Assembly: GCA_951802425.1 (NCBI GenBank)
Contig: OX637799.1
Span: forward strand, 248,001 to 312,000
Direction: 5' to 3'
Length of the DNA stretch: 64,000 nucleotides
Origin: Clavaria fumosa
Taxonomy: Eukaryota; Basidiomycota; Agaricomycetes; Agaricales; Clavariaceae
Positions 7,426 through 58,419 of this stretch are shown here, in pieces. The notes beneath the pieces were generated by a model. That model was not told the origin of the DNA and made no database searches. It saw nothing but the letters and a program-made list of their open reading frames with translations. Position 1 is the first letter of the stretch. Each line of letters opens with the position of its first letter. The position numbers and the translations under genes are program-made.

Positions 7426-10174
7426 ATGTCAACCGTCGTTCGCACGCTGTTCTCACGCAGAGCCTTGGCAGCCGCTGTGGGGGGTACAGGGCTTGCCCTC
7501 GGAGGGACGTACTGGTATCTCAATTCGGGTCCCGCGTACCCGCTCTCAACCAAGCAGACGCGCCGCCCGCCCTCCCCTTGGACGCCCCCATCGCGGGATG
7601 AGATGCTTAATGCACTTAGAGCAGCGTCGCTCACGCAGAACGACCCCTATGGGGACGCCGAGTTTGACCTGCTGATCGTGGGCGGGGGTGCGACTGGCGC
7701 AGGCGTCGCCGTCGATGCGGCGAGCAGAGGCTTGAAGGTAGCCCTGGTGGAACGAGATGACTTCGCCTCAGGTGGGGGACGACGGGACATGCTCTCTCGG
7801 CTCAGGGAACTGATCCATTTATTTTTTCTTCAGGGACTTCGTCGAAGGCTACCAAGCTTGTACATGGTGGCGTTCGGTACCTTCAGAAGGCAGTGATGGA
7901 GCTCGACTACGAGCAGTTCAAACTCGTCCGCGAGGCTCTACATGAACGCCGCAACTTCCTGCACAATGCTCCCTATTTATCGCACATGCTTCCGATCATG
8001 CTGCCAATTTACAAGTAGGCACTTCACTTCGGTGCCGCACGTCAGCTCAAGTGATTACGCTAGATATTGGCAGGTTCCATACTATTGGGTGGGATGCAAG
8101 CTGTATGACGTCCTCGCGGGTAAGGAGAATATGGAGACCTCGTATTTGATGAGCAAGGGCAAGGCTCTAGAGACGTTCCCTATGTTGAAGAGCGATGGGC
8201 TGGTTGGCGCTTTGGTCTATTATGACGGTGCAAATTGCGCTACCTTCTCAATCCCCAGTCTCCCAACTTACGAGGCGTAATAGGGCTGCACAACGACTCA
8301 CGGATGAACGTGGCGCTTATCATGACCGCGGTGAAGCTGGGCGCGGTAGTTGCCAATTATTGCGAACTTACGTCGCTTCGGAAACACCCAACCTCCGGCA
8401 AGTTGATCGGAGCACGCGTCCGGGACAATCTGACAGGCGAAGAATGGGATGTCCACGCCAAGGTACCCCTGTTTTGTCTTCCCTCCCTATAGAACGGCCC
8501 AGACCTCACAGAGTGGATGCCACAGGGCATCATCAATGCGACAGGGCCGTTCACAGACGCGCTGCTGAGCCTCGACAACCCGGCGCACAGGCCGATCGTG
8601 CAGCCGTCGTCTGGCACACACATCACGCTGCCCAACTATTACTCGCCACGGACAATGGGGCTCATCGACCCGTCCACGTCGGACGGGCGCGTCATCTTCT
8701 TCCTCCCGTGGCAGGGGAACACAATCGCGGGGACGACGGACATAGCGGCGGAGGTGACGAGCACGCCGCGCGCGCAGGAGGAGGAGATCAGGTGGCTACT
8801 AGAGGAGGTGCGGCGCTACCTCGCTCCAGACATCAAGGTGCGCCGCGGAGACGTGCTCAGCGCATGGAGCGGACTGCGACCGCTCGTGCGCAACCCCAAC
8901 GCAGCGAGTACGGAAGGGCTCGTGCGCAACCACATGATCCACGTGTCGGACTCAGGACTACTGACGATTGCTGGTGGAAAGTGGACAACGTACAGAGCCA
9001 TGGCGCAGGAGACGGTTGACGAGGCGGTCAGGGTGTTTGAGCTGGAGGACGAGGTGAAGAGCGGTTGTGTCACGGAGAAGCTTAGACTGGTTGGGAGTGA
9101 CGGATGGAGTCGGAATATGTTCATCGGGCTGATACAGAGAGTAAGGGGTCTTCTTTGAAGTTTTTGGCGTGTGACGTGTGCTGAATTTTGTGTGGGGCTT
9201 TAGTTTGGATTGGAGACTGACGTGGCAAAACATCTCTCGGACAGCTATGGCGATCGGGCATGGGCCGTATGTTCCTTTGCTCAGCCGACGGGCAGCAAAT
9301 GGCCATTGCATGGGATTCGTCTTTCGTCCCAATACCCCTGTACGTTTTCGCGTCCTTTGCACAAACAGGCAAGCTGGAAGATGGGATCACAGACATCGAA
9401 GCAGAGGTGATCTACGCCGTGCGAAATGAGTACGCGCAAACAGCGGTTGACGTGCTCTCGCGGCGCACGCGGCTGTCGTTCCTCAATGCGCAAGCGGCGC
9501 TCGACGTTCTCCCGCGTGTGGTCGACCTCATGGCAGCTGAGCTCGGGTGGGACGTGGCAAGGAAGCGGCGCGAGGTCGCAAACGGGGTGGAGTTCCTGGG
9601 GACGATGGGACTCGCGCCGGGCGCTGCGGCTGCGGAGACGCCTCTTGGCGAGCACATGGCGTTGAGGAGCGCGTGGGAGCGCATGGGCGGCGTGTTGTGG
9701 GGAGTTGGAAGGCGTGCGAATTCCGTGGACGAGGCGGGCGGGGCGAGCGTGGCGAAGGCGTATGCTGCGTATGGGCGGGCGCAGTTCGAGACTGGGGAGT
9801 TAGACGCCCTGCAAGAGGCGTTTGAGAAGCGTGCGAAGAGAGTGGTGGTACAAGCAGAGGAGGGGGAGGGGGAGATGATGGCATCCAAGTCGGAGCTGGC
9901 TACGGCGCTGCAGGAGATGCCAGCGTACGAGGGCATCTCGCCGCGCGACTACGAGTACGTGCTTGACGAAGCGGGGTTTCAGGGCCGGGAAGAGCTCAAT
10001 TTCGATGAATTTTTAGAGGTGTGTGTTTCCCTCTTGGTTTGCGAGTTAGACTGCGGTGCTGATTATCTGCAGATTTGCGCTGGCTTGAAAGAAGTGTCAT
10101 TGCCTCCGGTCGATAGCACAGATGCATTTGAGCGGAAGAGGATCCCGGTCGAGAAGAGCGGCGGTGGAGTGTAG
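7426..10174 (+). CDS. GUT2: FAD-dependent glycerol-3-phosphate dehydrogenase, mitochondrial
   Basis: Oxidises glycerol-3-phosphate to dihydroxyacetone phosphate at the outer face of the inner mitochondrial membrane and passes electrons to ubiquinone. The N-terminus has a basic presequence and a hydrophobic stretch ([20 protein letters not shown]). The FAD-binding dinucleotide motif [20 protein letters not shown] is at 7665-7727, then ERDDFASG, spliced to [18 protein letters not shown] (7833-7892). [16 protein letters not shown] follows at 8289-8335, then INATGPF and [15 protein letters not shown] (8697-8740). [15 protein letters not shown] is near 8966-9010. After the intron at about 9340-9387 the frame resumes with [27 protein letters not shown]. 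The C-terminus has the EF-hand-like pair of the eukaryotic enzyme ([24 protein letters not shown]). All family blocks are present. ATG 7426 is the first plausible start. Confidence 0.95.
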
Positions 10175-11192: not shown

Positions 11193-11281
11193 CATTCCCA
11201 AAATCCATTTCAATTCGTCTTGCTCTGTCCGTGCGCCCGCATCGCCCTCCTCCACTCCACCCCCGTAAGGCACAAATAACA

Positions 11282-12919
11282 ATGTCGTCTACCGCGGCGT
11301 TTACTTTCCGCGCTTCTCCATCGTCATCATCGTCGTCGTCATCGTCGGTATCCGCACGCGATCCGTCGTCGCCGTCGATGTCGTCGCGTGATGACTCATC
11401 TCATTCTCTGTCACCATCTGTCGGGTGGAAGATGGAGCCGGATCCTTGTGTCGTCGCATGCGATCCGAGTGTCAACCTCAGATACCGCGAGATGAACATA
11501 CAACTAACTACCTCGCCATCGTCTCATTCCAGACCCTCTCGGCAGCCGACCGTGCGGCCGCAGACCCATCCCCTCGAGGCCCACTCTCCCACCTTCGCAA
11601 TTTTTCCTCACAACTACAATTACCCAGTCTACAGTCAGCGAGATGTTTCGTCTGTGAACTCCGCGACTGCTCATCGCACGTCCAAGGCCTACAATGCTCC
11701 CGTATCTGCGCCCCTCGAAAGTAGATCGCTTTCAGCTCCAACTAGCTCCGCTTACTATGTCCCCGTAACTCAACTCGAACACCGTCCTCGGACGTCTACT
11801 CAGGTCTTCCACACCATCTCGGATCTCGCCGATCACCATGGTATCCCTCAATTTCTCCCGCCTGTACCTTGTACAACTCCACGCAGTGCTCCTATCGAGA
11901 GACCCGTTGATCCTCAACCTTTTGAAGACACCTTTTCAACCCTCTGCTCCGATTATCTAAATATGTTGTCTCAGACTCCCTCCGATCCTACTCCGCCTGC
12001 AGAGGATCCATCTGACGTCGTCCCCGTCACCGAACCCAAGGACGTGGAGACCGTTCAGGCCCTAATGGAGGTTCTCGCAGGTGAATGGGGTTTGTCATAC
12101 CACAGTCGTCAGATCATTTGTCTGACTCATCCATTTGGCAACCCCGCAGCCTCATCTCCAGAGTTCCGAACCCCGCACGGCCTGTCGGAGTTTATGTCGT
12201 CGCCATTTGACTCGCCATTTGACGACTTTCTTACCACGCCGGCTGACGTGGACCCGACAAGTCCTATGTTGGACTTTAGCGCCAACGACTTGCCACTATT
12301 TAGCGATATGGCCATTGACATGATGTCCAAAGCCGACGAGTGTTCGTCCGCCCCTCCCGTCGCTATCAAAGAAAGCCCGTTCTCGCCCACCATGCAGTGT
12401 ATGCCTTCGCCGTTCTCTCCCGCTCTTGATCCTTCCTCGCTGTATGCATCCTTTGACGAACCCACCGATGCGCCCGCCTCCTTGCCCTCGAGCACCCGCC
12501 GTAAGTCGTCAGCGACTGGCACTCGCAAGAACATCACTCCCGAAGCCCTTGTCCCTGTCGACGCGCCTACCCAATCCCGTCACTACACCATGCCATCTGC
12601 GACATCGCGCAAAGTCATTCCCGCGGTCTTTGCGAGGAAGCGGGCGCGCACACAGGCGTTCGGGGACGACGACGAGCTGGTTGACGAGGTGTTTACCCTA
12701 CCCCCGAACCCGACTGAGGCGCAGCTCATCGAGGCGAAGCGGCGGCAAAATACTGTTGCGGCGCGGCGGAGTCGCAAGCGAAAGCTGGAGTACCAACGCG
12801 AGTTAGAAGAATCAAACCAGCGGCTGGAAGCTGAGCGAGACCAGTGGAAGGCGCGCGCGTTGACCTCCGAGGCCCTGCTCAAGAGTCATGGTCTAGAAGT
12901 TCCACAATTCGATACATGA
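11282..12919 (+). CDS. GCN4/cpc-1-like bZIP transcription factor
   Basis: Nuclear activator. The C-terminal bZIP is diagnostic: PPNPTEAQLIEAKRRQNTVA (about 12700-12760), the basic motif NTVAARRSRKRKLEY, and a short leucine zipper LEESNQRLEAERDQWKARAL. It ends near the C-terminus as in GCN4/cpc-1, activators of the general amino-acid starvation response. The long N-terminal part is Ser/Pro-rich and acidic, with activation-like stretches near 12160-12330 (FMSSPFDSPFDDFL, DMAIDMMSKADE). ATG 11282 sits in ACAATG context, and upstream in-frame codons are non-ATG. A 70-base in-frame segment near 12081-12150 starts GTGAAT and ends CCCCGCAG, so it may be an intron. Five TGASTCA sites lie between 10228 and 12129, three outside and two inside the coding region. 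Confidence 0.88.
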   Translation: MSSTAAFTFRASPSSSSSSSSSVSARDPSSPSMSSRDDSSHSLSPSVGWKMEPDPCVVACDPSVNLRYREMNIQLTTSPSSHSRPSRQPTVRPQTHPLEAHSPTFAIFPHNYNYPVYSQRDVSSVNSATAHRTSKAYNAPVSAPLESRSLSAPTSSAYYVPVTQLEHRPRTSTQVFHTISDLADHHGIPQFLPPVPCTTPRSAPIERPVDPQPFEDTFSTLCSDYLNMLSQTPSDPTPPAEDPSDVVPVTEPKDVETVQALMEVLAGEWGLSYHSRQIICLTHPFGNPAASSPEFRTPHGLSEFMSSPFDSPFDDFLTTPADVDPTSPMLDFSANDLPLFSDMAIDMMSKADECSSAPPVAIKESPFSPTMQCMPSPFSPALDPSSLYASFDEPTDAPASLPSSTRRKSSATGTRKNITPEALVPVDAPTQSRHYTMPSATSRKVIPAVFARKRARTQAFGDDDELVDEVFTLPPNPTEAQLIEAKRRQNTVAARRSRKRKLEYQRELEESNQRLEAERDQWKARALTSEALLKSHGLEVPQFDT

Positions 12920-13483: not shown

Positions 13484-15477
13484 ATGAAACATACCAAGAA
13501 CACTCACGCACCGTCCGTCTCTCGCCAGAGCGGCGAGCGCCACAGCCAGAGCAGCTACGAGCTGTTAGAGAGCGGCAGCTGCCCTGGCGCCGCCGCCGCC
13601 ACCACAACTACTAGCATGAGCGGAAGCTGGACGCACCGCAGAGTGTGCTGGCAGTGCTGGCACTGGCGCCGCCTCGTCCTGTGTGTAGCCATCCTGCTTG
13701 CGCTCATGTACTTCATGGACCCAGGCGTCTCTCGTGCGCGCACACGCTTGAGCAGTCTGTCTGGTGAGCTGGTCTAACCTCCTCGTTTTTCTTTTTCTTC
13801 GGGTTGTTCCTTGTCTGACTTGAATGGTCGGTCGCAGAGGGGCAAGTACCTATTGAGAAGCCCTCGAAGGAGGAGGACATGCATCCCTCTCTACCACTAC
13901 CACAACTACCGAAACCGCTTGATGACGAGGTCTCGTTACCTCCACCGATGCCGACTACCCCAAGCACCATGACCGCCGCACCACCAATACCACTATCACC
14001 ACAGGCGGAGCCGTGCACCAGGCGCAACTCGTATGCGGTCATGATCGACGCTGGGTCAACGGGGTCGCGCGTGCATGTATATACCTTCCGTCATTGCCGT
14101 GGCGCATCTGCATCCGCGACGTCACCTACGTCCACGTTATCGTCCTCCTTGTCATCGACAGCAGCGACTTCTGCTGCGGAGCCGGCGTACGAGAGCGAAG
14201 TATTCCTCAAGACACAGCCCGGGCTATCCGCTCCCAGCTTTGCAGGGCACCCGGAAGCGGCCGCGGCGAGCCTGGATGTGCTGCTCGACGAGGCGGTGCG
14301 CGTTGTGCCCGCGTCGCAACGTGCGTGTACGCCACTCGCGGTACGCGCGACGGCAGGGCTGAGGTTGCTCGGTGCAACGCAGAGTGCGGCAATCTTGGAC
14401 GCGGTAAGGCGGCGGGTGAGGGCGCGCTATCCATTCGTCGTCGCTGAGGGTGAGGAGGGCGTACGGGTACTAGAGGGCAAGGAGGAGGGCGTGTTTGCAT
14501 GGATGACAGCTAATTATTTGTTGGGCGCTTTTCGGGGGGATGCTGGTGGTGGGACTGAGAGTGGGATGTCATACGCAGTGCTGGAGCTTGGGGGGGCGTC
14601 GATGCAGATTGTGTTCGAGCCCAGGTTCACTCGGCCGGACGGCGCGCTTGCGGAAGGCGAGCACAAGTACGACCTCACGTTCGGAGGGCGGACATACACG
14701 CTCTACCAACACTCATACCTCGGCTATGGACTCATGCGCGCGCGGCTGAGCGTGCATCGGCTCGTGGCGTTTATGGACTCGTTGCGCGCGAAGAATGGAA
14801 AAGACGAGCGGAAGGGGGAGGTGGTGATTGGCAATCCGTGTCTTGCGAAGGGCACCTCTCGCGTCATCAACCTCGACGACGTCACGGGGAATGTCACCAT
14901 GGACGGTGGTGATATCGGCAGCTTTGAGGCGTGCAATCGTGTCATGCAGCTCGTCATGGCCAAGGATGCGTGAGTGCTCTGTTGCTTTCAATTATCGTTA
15001 ATTGATCTCGCCGCTCACAGTATTTGCGAGACAAAGCCATGCTCGTTCGACGGAGTATACCAACCCTCATTCATAGATGCGTTTCAGACAGGCAAGATTC
15101 TGTTACTGTCCTACTTTTACGACCGCATACACCCGCTGCTCCCACCGACACCTACGCCGTCCGCCAGCGGTGCGGAGGACACGATACAGACATTGCCAAT
15201 ATCGACGCTCGCGACGCTCGCACGGCGCGTGTGTCTCGGACGGAGTGTGTGGCAAGAGCACTGGGGCGCGGACGCGGCACTACTGGCGGAGCTGGAGGGG
15301 CGGCCAGAGTGGTGTCTGGATCTGACGTTCATGCATGCGCTGCTGCGGCTTGGGTACGAGTTCCGCGACGAGCGCGAGGTCTCGATCGCCAAACGCCTTG
15401 CGGGGGCGGAGCTGGGATGGTGTTTAGGCGCGACTATCACTTTGGTTGGAGGGGCGGAGGTTAAGTGCCAGGATTGA
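13484..15477 (+). CDS. GDA1: GDA1/CD39 family nucleoside diphosphatase (guanosine diphosphatase)
   Basis: Type II Golgi membrane enzyme that hydrolyses GDP or UDP released by glycosyltransferases, so that nucleotide-sugar exchange can continue. Exon 1 has a short cytosolic tail and one membrane segment (LVLCVAILLALMYF, about 13677-13720). After a Ser/Thr/Pro stem come the apyrase conserved regions: MIDAGSTGSRVHVYTF (14041-14088), VRATAGLRLLG (14341-14373), EGVFAWMTANYLLGAF (14485-14532) and YAVLELGGASMQIVFEP (14572-14622). An intron at about 14971-15020 leads to the last exon, with SFDGVYQPSF and QEHWGADAALLAELEGRPEW. The stop is at 15475-15477. ATG 13484 is chosen because it gives a short basic tail before the membrane segment; an earlier in-frame ATG near 13325 is also possible. 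It could act as a wider-range apyrase. Confidence 0.88.
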
Positions 15478-22310: not shown

Positions 22311-25300
22311 TTACAAGAAACCATGGAATACTATCACCAGGAAGGCTGCCAACTGGCTGAGGTCGGGAAGCACTGCCGTCCCTAGAGCATTGTCGGGCAA
22401 TGCACTGAAGTCCGCGAGAGGAGTTCCAGAGGCACTTGCTGAAGGTTGGGTGCGGGTAGGTGACAATCCGGAAGTTGGAGCTGGGGTTGTTGTAGCGTCG
22501 TCCCAACATTATTTAGCAAGAAATTATGATTAGATTTTTATACTGAGAAAGACGACGACGCTGACCTTGTACAGGAGGAGGTGCGGGAGGAGGCGCGGGA
22601 GGAGGCGCGGGAGGAGGCGCGGGAGGAGGCACGGGAGGAGGTGCAGGAGGAGGCACGGGAGGAGGTGCAGGAGGAGGTGCGGGAGGAGGCGCGGGAGGAG
22701 GTGCGGGAGGAGGCGCAGGAGGAGGTGCGGGAGGAGGCGCAGGAGGAGGTGCGGGAGGAGGTGCGGGAGGAGGCGCAGGAGGAGGTGCGGGAGGAGGCGC
22801 AGGAGGAGGCGCAGGAGGAGGTGCGGGAGGAGGCGCGGGAGGAGGCGCGGGAGGAGGCGCGGGAGGAGGCACGAGAGGAGGTGCGGGAGGAGGTGCGGGA
22901 GGAGGTGCGGGAGGAGGCACGGGAGGAGGTACGGGGGGAGGCACGGGAGGAGGTACGGGAGGAAGCACGGGAGGAGGTACGGGAGGAGGCACGGGAGGAG
23001 GTACGGGAGGAAGCACGGGAGGAGGTACGGGAGGAGGCACGGGAGGTAGCACGGGAGGAGGTACGGGAGGTGGCACGGGAGGTGGCGCGGGAGGTGGCGC
23101 GGGAGGTGCTGCATTCGCATCATAAGCTTCGCACCCATTAGCAACGCTATCCTAGCTGACTCTTACCAGGAGCGGGCTCGGGAGCCGGGGGAGGCGGAGG
23201 TGGTGGAGGTGGAGGCGCCGCCGGTGGCTGAGGAACTATTATTACAGTAGATGGGTAAACAATTCTTAATTCACACAAGAAAGGACAAACCTGGAGCCGG
23301 GGGAGGTGGAGGTGGCGGCGGCGGAGGCGGCGGAACTACCACTTAGGTGGAAAGGAAATCACAACTATTGCAGCTAAGGAAGGGGAATTACAAACCTGGG
23401 GGCGGGGTAATAGGAGGCAGAGGCGGCGGAACCACCACTACGGAAAATGAATCACGACTACTAAAGTTAAGTAAGGGAGGTACGAACCTGGCGGCGGAGG
23501 CGGTGGAATCACTACAGAAAATGAATCACAACCGCAAAAGTTAAGTAAGGGAGGTACGAACCTGGAGGCGGGGGCGGTGGAACCACCACTATAGAAAATG
23601 AATCACGACTACTAAGGTTAAGTAAGGGAGGTACTAACCTGGCGGTGGAGGCGGTGGAACCACTACAGAAAATGAATCACAACTGCTAAAGTTAAGTAAG
23701 GGAGGTACGAACCTGGCGGCGGAGGCGGTGGAACCACTACAGAAAATGAATCACAACTGCTAAAGTTAAGTAAGGGAGGTACGAACCTGGCGGCGGAGGC
23801 GGTGGAACTACCACTATGGAAAATGAATTACAACCGCTAAAGTTAAGTAAGAGAGGTACGAACCTGGCGGCGGAGGCGGTGGAATCACCACTACAGAAAA
23901 TGAATCACAACTGGCTGAGATGAAAAGAGAAATGGAAGACACGAACCGGGCGGAGGATCTAAAGGAGCGAATGAAGGAATGAGTTGAGACGCAAAATAGA
24001 CGATGAGTTGGGAAATATCTTACCTCCGCATACACCATTATTGCAAACTTGGGGAGGGGTACAACAACCATCTCCGCAGAGAGAGGATGGGCTGGGTGGA
24101 AGTGAGATAATGACTAGCAGCTGAAAAAGTGTCAGATACATACGCAGTGCATCTCGCTGGGGAATGACAATCTGTCAGCTCTGGGCCAGCGAGTAAAGGC
24201 GAAACAAAGGGGACGAACCAACACAAGTCTGATTCTGGCATACTTCATCTGCTGTACAGCAAGGTCCGGGTCGGCAGGGAGTAGTTCCACTTAACGAGTC
24301 AAATTATAGGGATCCGAAATATCAGAGTAAACGGAATGGGGAGACGTACGCAATACAGGGAGGGTCTAAGGGAGGGAAAATGGAGTGAATTGAGACGCAA
24401 AATATACAAGTTAGAAATTATCTGACCCCCGCATACACCATTATTGCAAACTTGGGGAGGGGTACAACAACCATCTCCGCAGAGAGATGATGGGCTGGGT
24501 GGAAGTGAGATAATGACTAGCAGCTGAAAAAGTGTCAGATACATACGCAGCGCATCTCGCTGGGGAATGACAATCTGTCAGCTCTGGAACAGCGAGTAAA
24601 GGCGAAACAAAGGGGACGAACCAACACAAGTCTGATTCTGGCATACTTCATCTGCTGTACAGCAAGGTCCGGGTCGGCAGGGAGTAGTTCCACTTAACGA
24701 GTCAAAATTATAGGGATCCGAAATACCAGAGTAAACGGAATGGGGAGACGTACGCAATACAGGGAGGATCTAAGGGAAAATGGAGTGAATTGAGACGCAA
24801 AATATACAAGTTAGAAATTATCTGACCTCCGCATACACCATTATTGCAAACTTGGGGAGGGGTACAACAACCATCTCCGCAGAGAGAAGATGGACTGAGT
24901 GGAAGTGAGACCATGATTAGCAGTCGAACAGGCACCAGATACATACGCAGTGCATCTCGCTGGGTATCACAATCTGTTAGCTTTGGGACAGTAAGTAAAG
25001 GCAAAACAAATCGACGAACCAACACAAGTCTGATTCTGGCATACTTCATCTGCTGTACAGCAAGGTCCGGGTCGGCAGGGAGTAGTTCCACTAAATGGGT
25101 CAAAATTATAGGGATCCGAAACGCCAGAGTAAAACGGAATGGGGAGACGTACGCAATACAGGGAGGATCTAACGGAGGGAAAATGGAGTGAATTGAGACG
25201 CAAAATATACAAGTCAGAAATTATCTGACCTCCGCATACACCATTATTGCAAACTTTGGGGGGGGCACAACAACCATCTCCGCAGAGAGAAGATGGACTG

Positions 25301-27916
25301 AGTGGAAGTGAGACCATGATTAGCAGTCGAACAGGCACCAGACACATACGCAGTGCATCTCGCTGGGTATCACAATCTGTTAGCTTTGGGACAGTAAGTA
25401 AAGGCAAAACAAATCGACGAACCAACACAAGTCTGATTCTGGCATACTTCATCTGCTGTACAGCAAGGTCCGGGTCGGCAGGGAGTAGTTCCACTTAACG
25501 AGTCAAATTATAGGGATCCGAAATATCAGAGTAAACGGAATGGGGAGACGTACGCAATACAGGGAGGGTCTAAGGGAGGGAAAATGGAGTGAATTGAGAC
25601 GCAAAATATACAAGTTAGAAATTATCTGACCTCCGCATACACCATTATTGCAAACTTTGGGAGGGGTACAACAACCATCTCCGCAGAGAGATGATGGGCT
25701 GGGTGGAAGTGAGACAATGACTGGCAGCTGAAAAAATGTCAGATACATACGCAGCGCATCTCGCTGGGGAATGACAATCTGTCAGCTCTGGAACAGCGAG
25801 TAAAGGCGAAACAAAGGGGACGAACCAACACAAGTCTGATTCTGGCATACTTCATTTGCTGTACAGCAAGGTCCGGGTCGGCAGGGAGTAGTTCCACTAA
25901 ATGGGTCAAAATTATAGGGATCCGAAATGCCAGAGTAAAACGGAATGGGGAGACGTACGCAATACAGGGAGGATCTAAGGGAGGGAAAATGGAGTGAATT
26001 GAGACGCAAAATATACAAGTCAGAAATTATCTGACCTCCGCATACACCATTATTGCAAACTTTGGGAGGGGTACAACAACCATCTCCACAGAGAGAGGAT
26101 GGGCTGGGTGGAAGTGAGATAATGACTGGCAGCTGAAAAAGTGTCAGATACATACGCAGCGCATCTCGCTGGGGAATGACAATCTGTCAGCTCTGGGCCA
26201 GCGAGTAAAGGCAAAACAAAGAGGACGAACCAACACAAGTCTGATTCAAGCACACTTGATCTGCCATACAGCAAGGTCCGGGGCGGCAGGGAGTAGTTCC
26301 GCTAAACGAGTTAAGATTATAAGCGCCCGATACACTAGAGAAACGAAACTGGAAAGTTTACTTTGCACAAGGGGGATCTTAGGGAGTGAATAAGTGAGCG
26401 AATTGAGACAAAATATACAACAGGTTAGGAAATATCCGACCGATGCATGTCCCATTACTGCAGATCTTGGGAGGGGCACAACAACCATCTCCGCAGAGAG
26501 AGGATGGGCTGCGTGGAATGGAAGTAAGATAATGATCAGTGACAGAAAAGTGCCATATACATACGCAGCGCATCTCGCTGGAATGACAATCTGTTAGCTC
26601 TGGAACAGCGAGTAAAGGCAAAACAAAGGGGACGAACCAACACAAGTCTGATTCAAGCACACTTGATCCGCCGTACAGCAAGGTCCGGGGCGGCAGGGAG
26701 TGGTTCCGCTAAACGAGTTAAGATTATAAGCACCTGATACACTAGAGAAACGAAACTGGAAAGTTTACTTTGTACAAGGGGGATCTTAGGGAGTGAATAA
26801 GTGAGCGAATTGAGACGCAAAATATACAAGAGGTTAGGAAATATCCGACCGATGCATGTCCCATCACTGCAGATCTTGGGAGGGGCACAACAACCATCTT
26901 CTCCGCAGGGAGAGGATGGGCTGCGTGGAATGGAAGTAAGATAATGATCAGTGACAGAAAAAGTGCCATATACATACGCAGCGCATTTCGCTGAAATGAC
27001 AATCTGTTAGCTCTGGAACAGCGAGTACAAGAAGTGAGTGAACTTCTTACTAGTGCATTGCCCTTCTTCATTACAGGTTTGAGGAGGGGTGCAACAGCTA
27101 TTTGAACCGCAGGCGAAGGATGGGCTAGGTGGAAGTGAGACGATGACTGGCGACTGAAGAAATGCAAACCACATACACAGTGCAATTCGCTGTACATTTG
27201 CAAGAGGAAATCAGGGAGTGAATTTAGGGCTAAGATATACAAAGAGTAGGAAATATTTGACCTGTGCATGTATCTCCATTGCAAATTTGGGAAGGATCGC
27301 AACAATCATTTTCACCGCAAGCGAAGGATTCCCTGGGTGAGTGAGATCGTGACTGGGGACCGTAAACATGCCAAATGCATACCCAGGACAATTCACTGGA
27401 TACAGTTGCAGGAGGGAATGAAGGAGTGAGTTGAGAACCCATATGTACGAAGAAAACGGGACAATATCTGACCTATGCATGACCCTTCCTCAGTGCAAGT
27501 TTGGGTAGGCTGACAACAATTAACAGGACCGCAGATGGAGGATTCGCTAGGTGGAGGTGAGATCGTAACCAGCAGCCATAAAGGCCAGATACCTACCCAG
27601 GACAAGTCCCTGAGATGCATTTGAGAACTCATCAGACGAACGGAAAATGACGAGAATCTGCATACTTCGGCAGAGGCCATCGACGCAAATCTGGGGCTCT
27701 AGCAAAATAAAAGAGTTAATTCCTACACCTTCTCATGCGAGCTCTTGAGAAAGACGCACCTGGGCATGTACCGTTTATGCAGAGACCACCCCTGCTAACC
27801 AGTCTCTGAGCGATTCTTAGCCATCGATCGCTCTCTGCATTGGCGGCGAGGCGAGCTGCGACGTTGCCTAACAGAAAGAAGGTGAGGAGGACGAGAATGA
27901 CCCGTCCTTTGGACAT
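22311..27916 (-). CDS. modular secreted protein: ~18 six-cysteine modules, polyproline stalk, PPPA/PPPV domain, GPI-type tail
   Basis: A gene of about fifty exons with no homologue I can name. Exon 1 (27760-27916) encodes a signal peptide (hydrophobic core [12 protein letters not shown], then AA). About 18 cysteine modules follow with spacing C-x6-C-x3/4-CC-x5-C-x4/5-C. Each is built from a 13-16 base microexon carrying Cys1 and a ~68-71 base exon carrying Cys2-6. Examples are [15 protein letters not shown] followed by [12 protein letters not shown], and [14 protein letters not shown] followed by [11 protein letters not shown]. Next come about ten Pro-rich mini-exons (23170-23960), then one 543-base exon (22566-23108) of PPPA/PPPV repeats. 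The last exon (22311-22480) ends in a hydrophobic tail, [13 protein letters not shown], after small residues, as for GPI anchoring. Introns are phase 1 between modules and phase 2 inside them. It is likely a cell-wall surface protein; function is unknown. Alternative acceptors exist, so exact exon choice is uncertain. Confidence 0.78.
22566..23108 (-). repeat. 12-base coding minisatellite (PPPA/PPPV tetrapeptides)
   Basis: About 44 imperfect copies of a 12-base unit, GGGAGGAGGCGC-like on the plus strand, with variants ending GTGC, GCAC or GTAC. They form a single 543-base exon (181 codons) of the modular gene. Variants are clustered: Ala types dominate one half and Val types the other. The plus strand is extremely G-rich and purine-rich. 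All variation is in whole codons. Confidence 0.9.
23395..23960 (-). repeat. tandem mini-exon/intron array (~75-base period)
   Basis: Six near-identical copies of a unit holding a 24-27 base exon ([12 protein letters not shown] coding) and a ~50-base intron. They start near 23488, 23562, 23638, 23712, 23788 and 23864. More divergent relatives lie at about 23395, 23290 and 23168. Every exon is a multiple of three bases and is flanked by phase 1 introns, so copy number can change without shifting frame. Confidence 0.85.
23990..27040 (-). repeat. tandem ~402-base array, each unit encoding two cysteine modules
   Basis: The same landmark (caccattattgcaaact) recurs at 24033, 24436, 24836, 25239, 25640 and 26045, spacings of 400-405 bases. 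Diverged copies lie near 26450 and 26860. Each unit holds four exons, two microexons and two longer exons, and four introns. Introns are as similar between units as exons are, which points to recent whole-unit duplication or conversion. Confidence 0.92.
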
Positions 27917-29573
27917 CCTTAGAGGGAAAACTAGGGATGAGTACTAGGTGGTCGAAGTCAATCAGGGTTTCTTTTCACAGGGCAAATTCACCCGGTGCTC
28001 ACCCTGTAAAAAACAACGATGGATGGCAACTCCCGTGTCTTCGCCGGATGCAGCGTGGGCGCCGGTCTATTTCAGATCCAGCGCCGGGCGCTCAGCGCTC
28101 AGCGCCTGATCTCGATCTCTCATTTTTCCTAATCCGCATCTGACGGGCGGCGAACAAGCAAAACCCCTTTTCACATGCATCATGATTGTGGTAGATGAGC
28201 ATAAAGGGCTGACAAAAGCGCTTACCAGTTGAACGTTGAACTTTGAACGTTATATTGAATCAAGCTTTTCCCAACACGGGGGTAGACTTTGCTACCTTGA
28301 CAAAGTTTCGTGAAACTGCTGCGACGAGGGTCAGGGTCAGGGCACAAACGGAGTCTAAATTCACATGTACCATACTATATCGGTACAAGTTGCCAGTATG
28401 TTTAGAATAGGACAAGTACGTAGCTGGCACCGCCTTCCTTTCGCTAGGTGTGCATACACCCAAGCGGCTCAAGGAAGATCCTCAGACAATGAAGCTTCGC
28501 TGGTAGGCTCGGAGATTCGTAACGGCAACTCTGAGCATCGCAAGTATTGCCATGGCAACCTAAAAAAAACCTCTTATGCAACTGCCGGCGAATTTGCGAA
28601 CCCGGCTGGGAAAATATGCGGAAAGCACAAGGGAGGGGCCGTCTTTCGACGGCAGAGCCCTTGCTTGCATAAATGAAAGCTTAAATATAGACAATCCCTG
28701 CGTAGCGCTACTACATTATGATAACCCTGCCATATATTCAAAGTGCACTACTTGCTACCATGTAGTTTATATATGTACATAGTTAGATGGACCCCAGACT
28801 TTGTCTTGTCTGTGCACAAGTGTCTGACTGTCTGGGCCATCTTCCTACAGCTTATGCCACTTGTTTCTACACTGAATCTACAGATTATTGCAACCTGCTT
28901 TTGTCTCATTGATAATAAATATTTGTGCAAAGCAATGTCCACCTTGTGCAAGCAAGGGCTGGCACAAGACAGCACTTCCCTAGTACTATTATTTATGTTG
29001 GAAATACCTGACATCATGTGTACTTATCCACATCAGCAGGCCCCCAAGCACAACAAGGGTGGGAACATGTGAACTTATGTGCTTGCATCACACATCAGGC
29101 CCCAAGTGCAGTGAGGGTCGGAGGATCCAGACAACTACACCCAGCCACAGCATACAGGTCAACTGCAAACAACACCCGCACTACCTACTCAGCCCTAGCA
29201 TAGCCCGGGTTAACTGCTAGTGTAACCACAAATTCTCTTGCATGACTGGCGGATACTGGAGCCATCAGGCATGCTCGGTAATAGCGCCCTCTACATTGCT
29301 TCACAAGGGCATGGTCATATTTGTAAAAGGTGACTATAGCAAGACATCTGAGCTCGGCAGAGGTCACTGTTCCATGAACAGTATGAACAACACAATGTGA
29401 CACATTAGACGAGTCCGACTTCGGTATAAAGACAAACATTAGGCGCTCACGGCGCCGGGGAGTTCCGAAAAATTAAGGACAGTGGATGATGGAGCTGCAG
29501 GGTGATGATGTGGGCTTAGGAACGTGCGGCCGGCAAAGAGGGACTCACAGCCGCAGTTAGAAATTTACAAATT
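27917..29573. other. intergenic region with short simple repeats and a possible retroelement relic
   Basis: About 1.66 kb with no supported gene. It includes the promoter side of the modular gene. Near 28080-28105 is a GCGCTCAGCGCTCAGCGCC-like palindromic repeat, and near 28229-28250 three TTGAAC-type repeats. Around 29040-29150 are imperfect copies of a CATCAGGCCCCCAAG-like segment. Near 29247-29280 one frame reads LADTGAIRHAR between stops, weakly like a copia-type protease site. Confidence 0.4.
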
Positions 29574-32500
29574 TTACGAGAAGATCTCCGTGAGGGTTCG
29601 ACGTCGTTCCATCTCGGATATCTGCGAGTGGCCCTGCGACTGGGCACCAAGACGCTCTGTATCCAAAGATCCTCGCGTCCGAAAAGCCAGCGTCCGTCGC
29701 CTCGAATCTTTGTCAGTGTCTGAGCTTGAATGAGACTTCTTGATGGCAGGCGGCGAGGCGGTCGTCGCTTCTCCAGGGTTCGATGATGATTGTGATACCG
29801 TACGCTTCCTGTTGTCTTGTTGCTGGACTCCGCTGAGTGCAGAGATAGAAACGGCGGCCGGGCGCGAGAAGGTGACAGTCTTCGTGCGATAATGCGAACC
29901 CGAGCTGGCTCTGCTCACAGGTGACGGATTGACGTCAGGCGATGAGACAGTATGTGGCGTCACAGCGGTTGTGGCGCCTGGAGTAGCAATAGTGCCAAGG
30001 GTTGGAGGCAAGTGACTCCCACGAGGCACAGTCATGGATACCAGATTGCTCCTGCGACGGAGGCTTTTGTCGGCTCTAGCGTTGGCTCTAGAGGGAGGTG
30101 ATGGGTCTGGCTCTGGCTGCGACAGCCCTGTCCCGAGAGAGAGGTCAAGTAATGTGCGGTCCGACTCTATTCTTTCTGGTGGAGTGGGTGAGGGGGCCAG
30201 AGCGCGTATAGTTGCCGTGGAATCCACGGATTCAGCAAATGATACCCGGGGATCTTGATTGTCGATGTGGTCCTGTATGGCAAAGCGACGCGAAGAAACC
30301 AAGTCTGAGAAATTTCTGCTTGAAGCGGAGGTGATGGAGCGCGGTGGGGGTGAGCGAAGTTCGCGGTAGTCATCCGTACTACTGCGACGGTCCCGATCTC
30401 GGAAGGAGGCGAGGCTTGAAGATGGTCGGGCACTGGGGGTAAGGGTATTCTCTGATCGGGTTGCGAGACGCCTCAGAGAATCGCTTGCACGTTCGCTACT
30501 TCGATGGGAGGCAGCACTTCTTCGTCCCTCTGAGCTCCTATTTTCATCCAAACTCCTCCTCACACTACCAGCATCGGAATGTGCGACATGTCTCTCCTCC
30601 AGATCCAAGCTCACGGTTCGCGCATGAGCCGCCCCATGTTCATTCATTGATACCTCCTTGAGCACCTTTCCCATGTCCAACATGAAGCCGGTGACGGTCC
30701 TGACCAGTTCATCGCTTACCCTCAAAGAATCCCTATAGTTCGAGTGGACCATTCTCCATGACTCAGCACTTATTCTGTCACCCTCGTCCGACACCTCGGA
30801 ATCGATTTGTTCTTGGAGAGCCTTGTTCATCCCTGTTCTGGTGAGCACGTTGACCTTCTCTGTCATGTGGACGACGCTTTGCGCGCTCCTGAACAAGTCC
30901 GATACCGCCGTTGTAGTGGGTAGCCTTAGTAACTGCGATTCAAAAGCTTTCAGGGCCTCCACCATAAGTCGTCCGTGATCAGGATTCGTGTTTTGTGAGC
31001 GAAGATGGAGGCCTGGACTTGGTTGGCGAGAGATCGGCGTACTAGCACCGTACCGACTCAGTACGGTCGAACCGATGTTTAAAGGGGACGTGTAGCGATC
31101 GCGGTCGTAATGGAGCCCTTGACGGCTACCAGCTGCAGACCTAGCCTTGTCCCGTTCCCCCGGGCTCGAAGAAAGGGGCGTCTGGGCGACTTTCATTTGT
31201 AGTGTTTCATTATCCGCGTGCCCTACTTTCGTTTCGTTGGCCCTGGAGGGGGTCCAAGGCCGGGCTGGAGGATAGGAAGGTTGCCGTTCTCCAAAATTCC
31301 CGTCATGATCTCCAACGTCTGGATGCATTTGAGTTGAGGAATGTTCTGTGGGCAGACTTGGTGTTGTGCGACAATCAGATTTGACGTCGAGCCCATTCCT
31401 ACCCTCCATAGCATTGCCCACTGCAATTCCATCGGCGCTTCTCGCATCTCGGGTCGTAGCTTCTCTATTTAGCCAATCTTGAAGATCTCTACCTTTGCCT
31501 TTGCCTTTCGGTCCCAGTATTCCAGCCACTGCGCCAACAACCGAACCCAACCGAGTTCTTTTTCTATACTCCCGAAAGTCAGCAGAAAATACATCCTCTG
31601 ACTCTGCAGTACTACTGCTGGCCTTCCTCAGGATTCCGGCGGCTTTGAGACCCTGCCCAACCAAACTTCTTTTGCCGGTCTGATTATCGAAGGCTTTCGC
31701 TGCTGCACGCCGTTCTGCGGCCAAATTGTCAAGGGGTAAACGTGATACACCCACACCAGAACCCTCTGGTGGCCCCCGTATTGTGTCAGATCGCTTTCTC
31801 GACGAGCCATTGATTGCCCATCTTTCTGCGAATGAGTTTGTACTCCCGTTTAGCGCAAGGGACCTAAAGGACTTCGGTGACGGAGAGGCGTGTGATATCT
31901 GAAAGTTGTGCTCGACATCGTCTATGTGTGGGCGATATTGAGGAGGAATAGGGTTGACAGAAACTGGCTGTGAGGAGACCGTAACGTTAGTGATATAAAT
32001 ACGCTAACAGCTGAAGATATATTCACCCTATCATCGATGCTTTTCCTCTCCCTCGGCGACTCCGTCTCACGGAATTCTCTTGGAATTGCGCTCCTCGGCC
32101 TTAAGCCTGCTCCAATACTTCCACTTTCACGGACAGAAGCCACGGCAGCAAGGGCTGCGGCAGTGACGTCTTTTTCACTCCCCCTGTCTCGATGTCGGTC
32201 CCGATCAAACAAATGATCCACGACAGCCATATTAATTGTCCTCCTAGTTGTCCTCAAGGCGCCATTCATCTCCTTTCTTTCACTGATAGCACTCTGGCTT
32301 GGTAAGGATCTGGTGGGCAAATCGGAAGCGTGCCTCCTCTGTTGGGAAAGAGATCGTGCGATAGCGCCAGTCACAGATGCTTGCGTAGGGCTCTGTTGCG
32401 AAAGGGGGCGACGCGCGGAAGACGATGTGGGAAACTGAGGATATGAAGGTATGGAACGGACATGCGAAGCTGTTGTTGAGGAAGGCGGCGGGCTAAATTC

Positions 32501-58377: not shown

Positions 58378-58419
<42 letters not shown>

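Follow-up and report, generated by a model that had tools for sequence, protein, structure and literature searches.

Two predicted fungal genes for tandem six-cysteine modules joined to a proline-rich stalk and a GPI-type tail

The stretch of DNA analysed here, 64 kb in full and referred to below as the window, carries on its minus strand a predicted gene, gene 1, whose product would run from a signal-peptide-like leader through a four-cysteine half-module, 18 six-cysteine modules and a 289-aa proline stalk to a hydrophobic tail. Its parts, numbered by position in the window, are the following.

22311..27916 (-): gene 1, whole; 50 predicted exons, 915-aa product
27917..28098 (-): 5' flank resembling that of gene 2; blastn pieces up to 28098, 134 of 186 aligned bases identical in 200 bp
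27760..27916 (-): exon 1, leader resembling a signal peptide, with a conserved 11-residue segment; 69% identical to gene 2 over 51 aa
27666..27698 (-): exon 2, end of the four-cysteine N-terminal half-module (gene model)
27051..27609 (-): modules 1-3, each a 13-nt microexon and a 71- or 74-nt exon (gene model)
26578..26990 (-): cassette 1, two modules, exons of 13+71+16+71 nt (gene model, cassette comparison)
26169..26577 (-): cassette 2, exons of 13+68+16+71 nt (gene model, cassette comparison)
25764..26168 (-): cassette 3 (gene model, cassette comparison)
25363..25763 (-): cassette 4 (gene model, cassette comparison)
24960..25362 (-): cassette 5 (gene model, cassette comparison)
24560..24959 (-): cassette 6 (gene model, cassette comparison)
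24157..24559 (-): cassette 7 (gene model, cassette comparison)
24024..24156 (-): module 18, exons of 13 nt and 68 nt (gene model)
23167..23958 (-): ten mini-exons rich in proline codons, each phase 1-1 and 12-69 nt long (gene model)
22566..23108 (-): 543-nt exon with PPPA/PPPV repeats (gene model)
22311..22480 (-): last exon, with a Ser/Thr/Pro segment and a predicted GPI-type hydrophobic tail that shares 42 of 53 aligned residues with gene 2

An initial annotation had traced in-frame exons from a signal peptide at 27916 to a stop at 22311, and this was borne out by the 50-exon, 915-aa chain, in which all 49 introns run from GT to AG (50-85 bp, mean 58). The module spacing proposed at the same time, C-x6-C-x3/4-CC-x5-C-x4/5-C in about 18 copies, occurs exactly 18 times in spliced gene 1: seven modules are C-x6-C-x3-CC-x5-C-x4-C, nine have four residues before the cysteine pair, and two have four residues there together with a last loop of five. 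These modules hold 108 of the 112 cysteines in the product, the other four lying in the N-terminal half-module. The proline-rich mini-exons, PPPA/PPPV domain and hydrophobic tail of the earlier description were likewise recovered, as ten mini-exons, one 543-nt exon and a hydrophobic C-terminus. The second gene, the two-module cassette and the class 1-1 exon code described below were no part of that earlier description.

When the genome in full (17 contigs, 48.8 Mb) was searched with a module query, the hits were gene 1 and one further locus, on contig C7, where a second gene is predicted; its positions are given within locus L025.

L025 3301-8243 (+): gene 2, complete predicted gene on contig C7; 49 exons, 765 aa
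L025 7963-7998 (+): gene 2 exon, part of the final gene 2 model

The gene 2 product has 15 six-cysteine modules (94 cysteines in all), proline mini-exons, and a leader and tail like those of gene 1. The 5' flanks of the two genes are alike over about 180 bp, and the length differences between corresponding exons are multiples of three. Queries of the genome with the leader, tail and modules revealed no third locus among the best-scoring candidates, leaving two loci only, and genes 1 and 2 are a predicted two-member family of disulfide-rich fungal proteins. Comparison of the masked 30-kb surroundings of gene 2 with the masked window gave nothing by blastn at 1e-3 or by tblastn of 180 ORFs at 1e-4; because the wider flanks are not common to the two genes, the copy appears to have been dispersed, with no segmental duplication seen. 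A short direct repeat with GGCGCCCACGCTGGATCTG lies upstream of gene 2 at L025 3080-3180, and a similar stretch is found upstream of gene 1. Six of the 15 gene 2 modules (L025 3995-6006) are of the form C-x3-C, three residues fewer from Cys 1 to Cys 2, and have 10-nt microexons.

Splice signals are well formed in both models, with G at intron position 5 in 46/49 introns and a pyrimidine-AG acceptor in 43/49 for gene 1, and 42/48 and 46/48, respectively, for gene 2. A CTRAY branch-like site is present in 22 of 49 gene 1 introns, against a mean of 7.0 in shuffled introns, and in 14 of 48 gene 2 introns, a weaker signal than that of gene 1 (shuffle mean 7.3, maximum 15 in 200 shuffles).

An open reading chain is by itself little proof. 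The cysteine frame is settled by motif enrichment together with the distribution of stops in the arrays. Across six frames of the window, the motif C-x2-4-CC-x5-C-x3-5-C has 18 matches, all on the minus strand within gene 1, while first-order Markov simulation of 30 windows of 64 kb gave a mean of 0.03 and a maximum of 1. Within the modelled array exons, the cysteine frame is the sole stop-free frame in both genes, having no stops in 506 codons of gene 1 (4 and 20 in its alternative frames) or in 400 codons of gene 2 (15 and 27).

Splice-site searches made blind to cysteines did not return the whole cysteine chain, either in a first version whose script permitted empty exons (0 of 3 settings) or with exons of at least 9 nt (0 of 5 settings, 0-6 modules recovered), and in the latter the cysteine model scored below the best chain at all five settings. 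The best chain terminated at 22311 in two of these five, and the five chains contain 43-46 of the 49 acceptors and 33-42 of the 49 donors of the gene 1 model; since the splice sites were mostly recovered, the disagreement lies mainly in the frame. An alternative frame preferred by codon usage was dropped, as the usage table came from one unverified neighbouring ORF and the frame, with the modelled exons, has stops in both arrays. The preference of these searches for other frames fits a rival view of gene 1 as a tandem repeat in decay or without coding function, its frame open simply as a result of the repeat period. Such an origin is highly improbable, given a diverged second gene that keeps the plan, leader and tail with matching exons differing in length by multiples of three, the 112 and 94 cysteines of the two genes, and the absence of stops in the cysteine frame against 4-27 in the others.

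In both genes, a module is encoded by a microexon carrying Cys 1 followed by a 62-74-nt exon carrying Cys 2-6; the microexons are 13 or 16 nt in gene 1 and 10 or 13 nt, once 22 nt, in gene 2. The exon pair begins and ends in phase 1 and encloses a phase 2 intron, and the proline mini-exons are likewise phase 1-1, so that gene 1 between its first and last exons consists of class 1-1 units. There are 31 phase 1, 18 phase 2 and no phase 0 introns in gene 1 and 33, 15 and none in gene 2, which gives 64 phase 1, 33 phase 2 and 0/97 phase 0 introns when the genes are pooled. Because phase 1 introns flank the modules on both sides in the predicted mRNA and phase 0 introns are absent, whole modules can come and go without a frameshift, while single module exons cannot.

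The two-module cassette of gene 1 is about 403 bp long. Its seven copies are 78.4-96.6% identical, and a perfect repeat of 210 bp or more occurs in copies 1204 bp apart. The six cassettes of gene 2 are 79.9-94.4% identical, while long array alignments between the genes reach only about 65-67%; the higher identity within each gene suggests separate turnover in each. Judged by exon code and cassette identity, genes 1 and 2 seem to have expanded through in-frame duplication of exon pairs, and the approximately 0.4-kb cassettes of class 1-1 exon pairs would let the gene grow or shrink in frame. A review of exon shuffling asks, in the passages cited, why the process is restricted to Metazoa, and describes the shuffled domains as all class 1-1 (PMC8001218). 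Like the extracellular modules of those animal proteins (PMC8001218), the modules described here are symmetrical phase 1-1 units. Unlike them, genes 1 and 2 are fungal, each module is divided by an inner phase 2 intron and a microexon, and what is seen is internal duplication rather than module transfer between genes. As a tentative proposal, for which the case falls somewhat short of even, the fungus may have independently built an extracellular modular protein through class 1-1 exons, with disulfide modules as two-exon units and proline spacers as mini-exons both multiplied by in-frame duplication, giving a new surface family based on a new six-cysteine module.

Selection on the coding sequence was estimated both between and within the genes. 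The tail appears constrained (dN 0.116, dS 0.413, dN/dS about 0.28) and the leader exon less so (dN 0.19, dS 0.30), and no constraint is apparent from the leader through module 1 (dN 0.229, dS 0.224), where 10/10 cysteines are kept while 60 of 90 aligned residues are identical and 30 different. Between genes, introns 1 and 2 (51/60 and 47/55) are marginally more conserved than exon 1 (125/154). First-module exons, compared over three cassettes in each gene, differ at codon positions 1, 2 and 3 by 0.313, 0.363 and 0.358, close to neutral, and second-module exons, compared in the same way, by 0.167, 0.211 and 0.317, mostly at position 3. Within gene 1, cassette exons are 0.922 identical (15 of 21 pairs, the six pairs with cassette 1 being left out for its different length) vs 0.853 for introns (21 pairs), with 64, 35 and 97 changes at codon positions 1, 2 and 3. 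Within gene 2 (15 pairs), exons at 0.850 are hardly better kept than introns at 0.844, and the changes number 65, 109 and 177. The reading of these mixed, small estimates from one gene pair is that the cysteines and the frame are kept while the loops may be nearly free. Purifying selection that is weak in parts again fits a decaying repeat, against which stands the dN/dS of the tail.

Searches for the identity of the modules were consistent with the initial suggestion that they are apparently undescribed, as neither Pfam nor NCBIfam gave an accepted family and single modules gave weak matches only. The gene 1 cysteine region had no Pfam match at E<=1, that of gene 2 matched TRAM alone (E 0.1, below the cut-off), and NCBIfam returned no family for gene 2 in a shortened 365-aa form. 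At E<=10, 16 single modules gave weak Pfam matches to five families: the Mu-conotoxin family in 3/16 (best E 0.06), together with CFAI_FIMAC_N in 2/16 (best E 0.0052) and three further families in one module each, the Mu-conotoxin match being the one weighed against its family cut-off. Stig1 (PF04885) had no match in the cysteine regions of genes 1 and 2 or elsewhere in the genome, although it was silent in the control genomes as well. The module profile (A3) had no significant match in the PDB; the best, at E 0.17, was a mu-conotoxin-like peptide covering part of the module, and omega-atracotoxin Hv2a followed at a non-significant E of 0.45, the five PDB sequences listed all being short disulfide-rich toxins.

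Protein-database searches at E<=0.01 found no relative for the N-terminal 405 aa of the gene 1 product (7993 candidates scored) or for the two-gene alignment (7992 candidates; the gene 1 row abridged to 408 aa, with fewer cassettes). A control search with a neighbouring ORF recovered ten proteins, four with named Agaricomycete sources, the best-scoring 38% identical; because the database covers Agaricomycetes but the control gave no near relative, absence of the family there is weak evidence. Among the titles and abstract openings listed by searches of open-licence PMC papers with the terms used, none described such a protein. A clear match of the modules to a known domain family, specifically looked for, was thus lacking, with no match passing its cut-off in Pfam, PDB and protein-database searches whose coverage of fungi is partial.

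The nearest fungal comparison is with tandem CBM18/hevein-type proteins, and genes 1 and 2 might be a diverged array of this kind, with modules binding wall chitin or foreign chitin. In Batrachochytrium dendrobatidis, many small C-C-CC-C-C domains are likewise arranged in tandem, one gene being reported to have 11 copies, and the printed pattern X3CGX7CX4CCSX4CX6CX3C has the same cysteine order and CC-x5-C loop (PMC3569864); hevein-like peptides, moreover, are described as having a cystine-knot core (PMC5478723). The present modules differ in having six cysteines rather than the seven of the printed pattern or the four-disulfide, eight-cysteine core of hevein, in a first loop of six (or three) residues instead of eight, and in a last loop of 4-5 instead of six. 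Since six-cysteine hevein-like peptides are also without the fourth disulfide (PMC5478723), the cysteine count alone would not exclude a hevein relation. By the chitin-site motif given in PMC5478723, Ser follows the cysteine pair in 2/33 modules, and an aromatic residue stands at CC+3 in 0/33 and at CC+5 in 0/33, in agreement with the earlier remark that the spacing resembles hevein without its aromatics. Neither cysteine array contains Trp or Tyr, and a proline stalk and tail are added. PF00187 was not among the five families listed for single modules and a search of the genome for it at E<=10 came back empty, a weak point given that only one of 14 control genomes matched, below the cut-off; no hevein entry was among the five PDB sequences listed for the module profile. 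The modules are not assigned to CBM18, because the outer loops are shorter, Ser is found in 2/33 and the aromatics in 0/33, and a diverged chitin-binding array is regarded as quite unlikely.

The order C-C-CC-C-C is shared by all 33 modules of the two genes, which were found by that pattern, and no array cysteine falls outside it in either gene (108 = 18x6 and 90 = 15x6). This order is common to cystine-knot alpha-amylase inhibitors and 6C-hevein-like peptides, according to the cited part of PMC5478723, so a cystine knot, with pairing I-IV, II-V and III-VI, is a plausible fold for the module. In size, with Cys 1 to Cys 6 spanning 22-26 residues, the modules resemble knottins, 6C-hevein-like peptides and plant alpha-amylase inhibitors, the last two also in cysteine order (PMC5478723), but they gave no significant sequence match in the PDB and occur up to 18 per chain rather than as single peptides. 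The knottin size and the faint, non-significant resemblance to PDB toxins noted above are compatible with a precursor cut into many small secreted knottin-like peptides acting as antimicrobials, inhibitors or signals. After residue 22, however, each protein has a single dibasic pair, which precedes module 1 or lies at its beginning, with none between later modules, and a peptide precursor would have no evident need of the stalk and conserved tail; processing of this type is very unlikely.

The initial picture of a modular protein with a hydrophobic leader and tail is supported by hydropathy, which reaches 3.35 over 11 residues from residue 6 of gene 1 and 2.46 over its last 11 residues, with a similar tail in gene 2. 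The hydrophobic tail of gene 1 is short, at about 13 residues, and looks like a predicted GPI-type signal. N-glycosylation sequons before the stalk number 12 in gene 1 (shuffle mean 4.0, maximum 11) and 11 in gene 2 (mean 4.8, maximum 12) in 1000 shuffles each, counts that the repeats inflate. The gene 1 stalk has 206 Pro in 289 residues, with one Thr and no Ser, and that of gene 2 has 181 Pro in 246 residues, with 12 Ser, four Thr and 13 S/T-P pairs. Extensins are extracellular proline-rich proteins with Ser-(Pro)n repeats, and the initial comparison with an extensin extends to a long run rich in proline in a product predicted to be extracellular but fails on the chemistry of the gene 1 stalk, in which PPPA/PPPV lacks the Ser-Pro glycosylation repeat of extensins and other HRGPs. 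Extensin-type glycosylation therefore does not follow for gene 1. Long proline stretches form a stiff polyproline-II rod of about 0.31 nm per residue. On the strand opposite the PPPA/PPPV repeat, long Glu-Arg-rich and Gly-rich open frames at 22530-23141 (+) and 22565-23125 (+) are most likely by-products of the 12-bp repeat.

Taken together, genes 1 and 2 are probably a real two-member family encoding secreted, probably GPI-type surface proteins with a multivalent disulfide-bead array that expanded by tandem exon-pair duplication, a reading held with moderate confidence. The leader, judged by its hydropathy, would direct the product to the ER, where 18 small domains, each expected to form three disulfides, might fold into a compact bead array; the cysteine pattern is observed and the folding predicted from it. 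The 289-residue stalk could form a polyproline-II rod roughly 90 nm long. A GPI anchor may replace the hydrophobic tail at the C-terminus, in which case the rod would carry the array through the wall. Multivalent display might then make hyphae adhere to one another or to a surface, or provide a protease-resistant shield. Adhesion or shielding is the leading reading because GPI attachment is common among fungal repeat proteins that are not processed, and the number of repeats can determine adhesion, as for Flo1, whose repeat number tracks adhesion in the cited account (PMC5923269). Genes 1 and 2 resemble these GPI-type proteins and Ustilago Rsp3 in being repetitive and secreted, but Rsp3 is described in the same account as having no predicted GPI anchor and one cysteine region beside other repeats (PMC5923269), whereas here the repeat is itself the cysteine module.

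Counting against the favoured reading are the lack of any evident aromatic binding surface on the modules, the shortness of the hydrophobic tail, the codon usage of the neighbouring ORF, which favours another frame, and the weak selection outside the cysteines. A structural wall or spore-coat protein, forming disulfide-cross-linked armour with no specific ligand, would account for non-cysteine residues that are nearly free to evolve while cysteines are kept, and for array lengths that vary between the genes (18 vs 15 modules). The rod-and-tail plan would suit display better, although nothing separates coat from display directly, and a coat function is considered unlikely.

The gene structure may also bear on how such proteins are catalogued. 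Should the predicted transcript prove right, 25 of the 50 gene 1 exons do not exceed 30 nt, and gene finders may split genes built in this way. Families of microexon genes of this kind may then be missing from fungal protein sets, the two genes would offer a fungal test case for class 1-1 module duplication in the building of extracellular proteins, and they would represent an unexplored source of tandem disulfide mini-domains.

Elsewhere in the window, Pfam matches were found to an alpha-glycerophosphate oxidase C-terminal domain at 9260-10174 (+), a bZIP region at 11231-12919 (+) and a GDA1/CD39 nucleoside phosphatase at 13879-14973 (+). An 809-aa open stretch at 29574-32003 (-) has ten relatives at 32-46% identity, four of them with named sources (Hygrophoropsis, Multifurca, Punctularia and Phellinidium), which puts the genome close to the Agaricomycetes, and an array of the hexamer CACCGA (6.8 copies, 97% matches) lies at 58378-58418.
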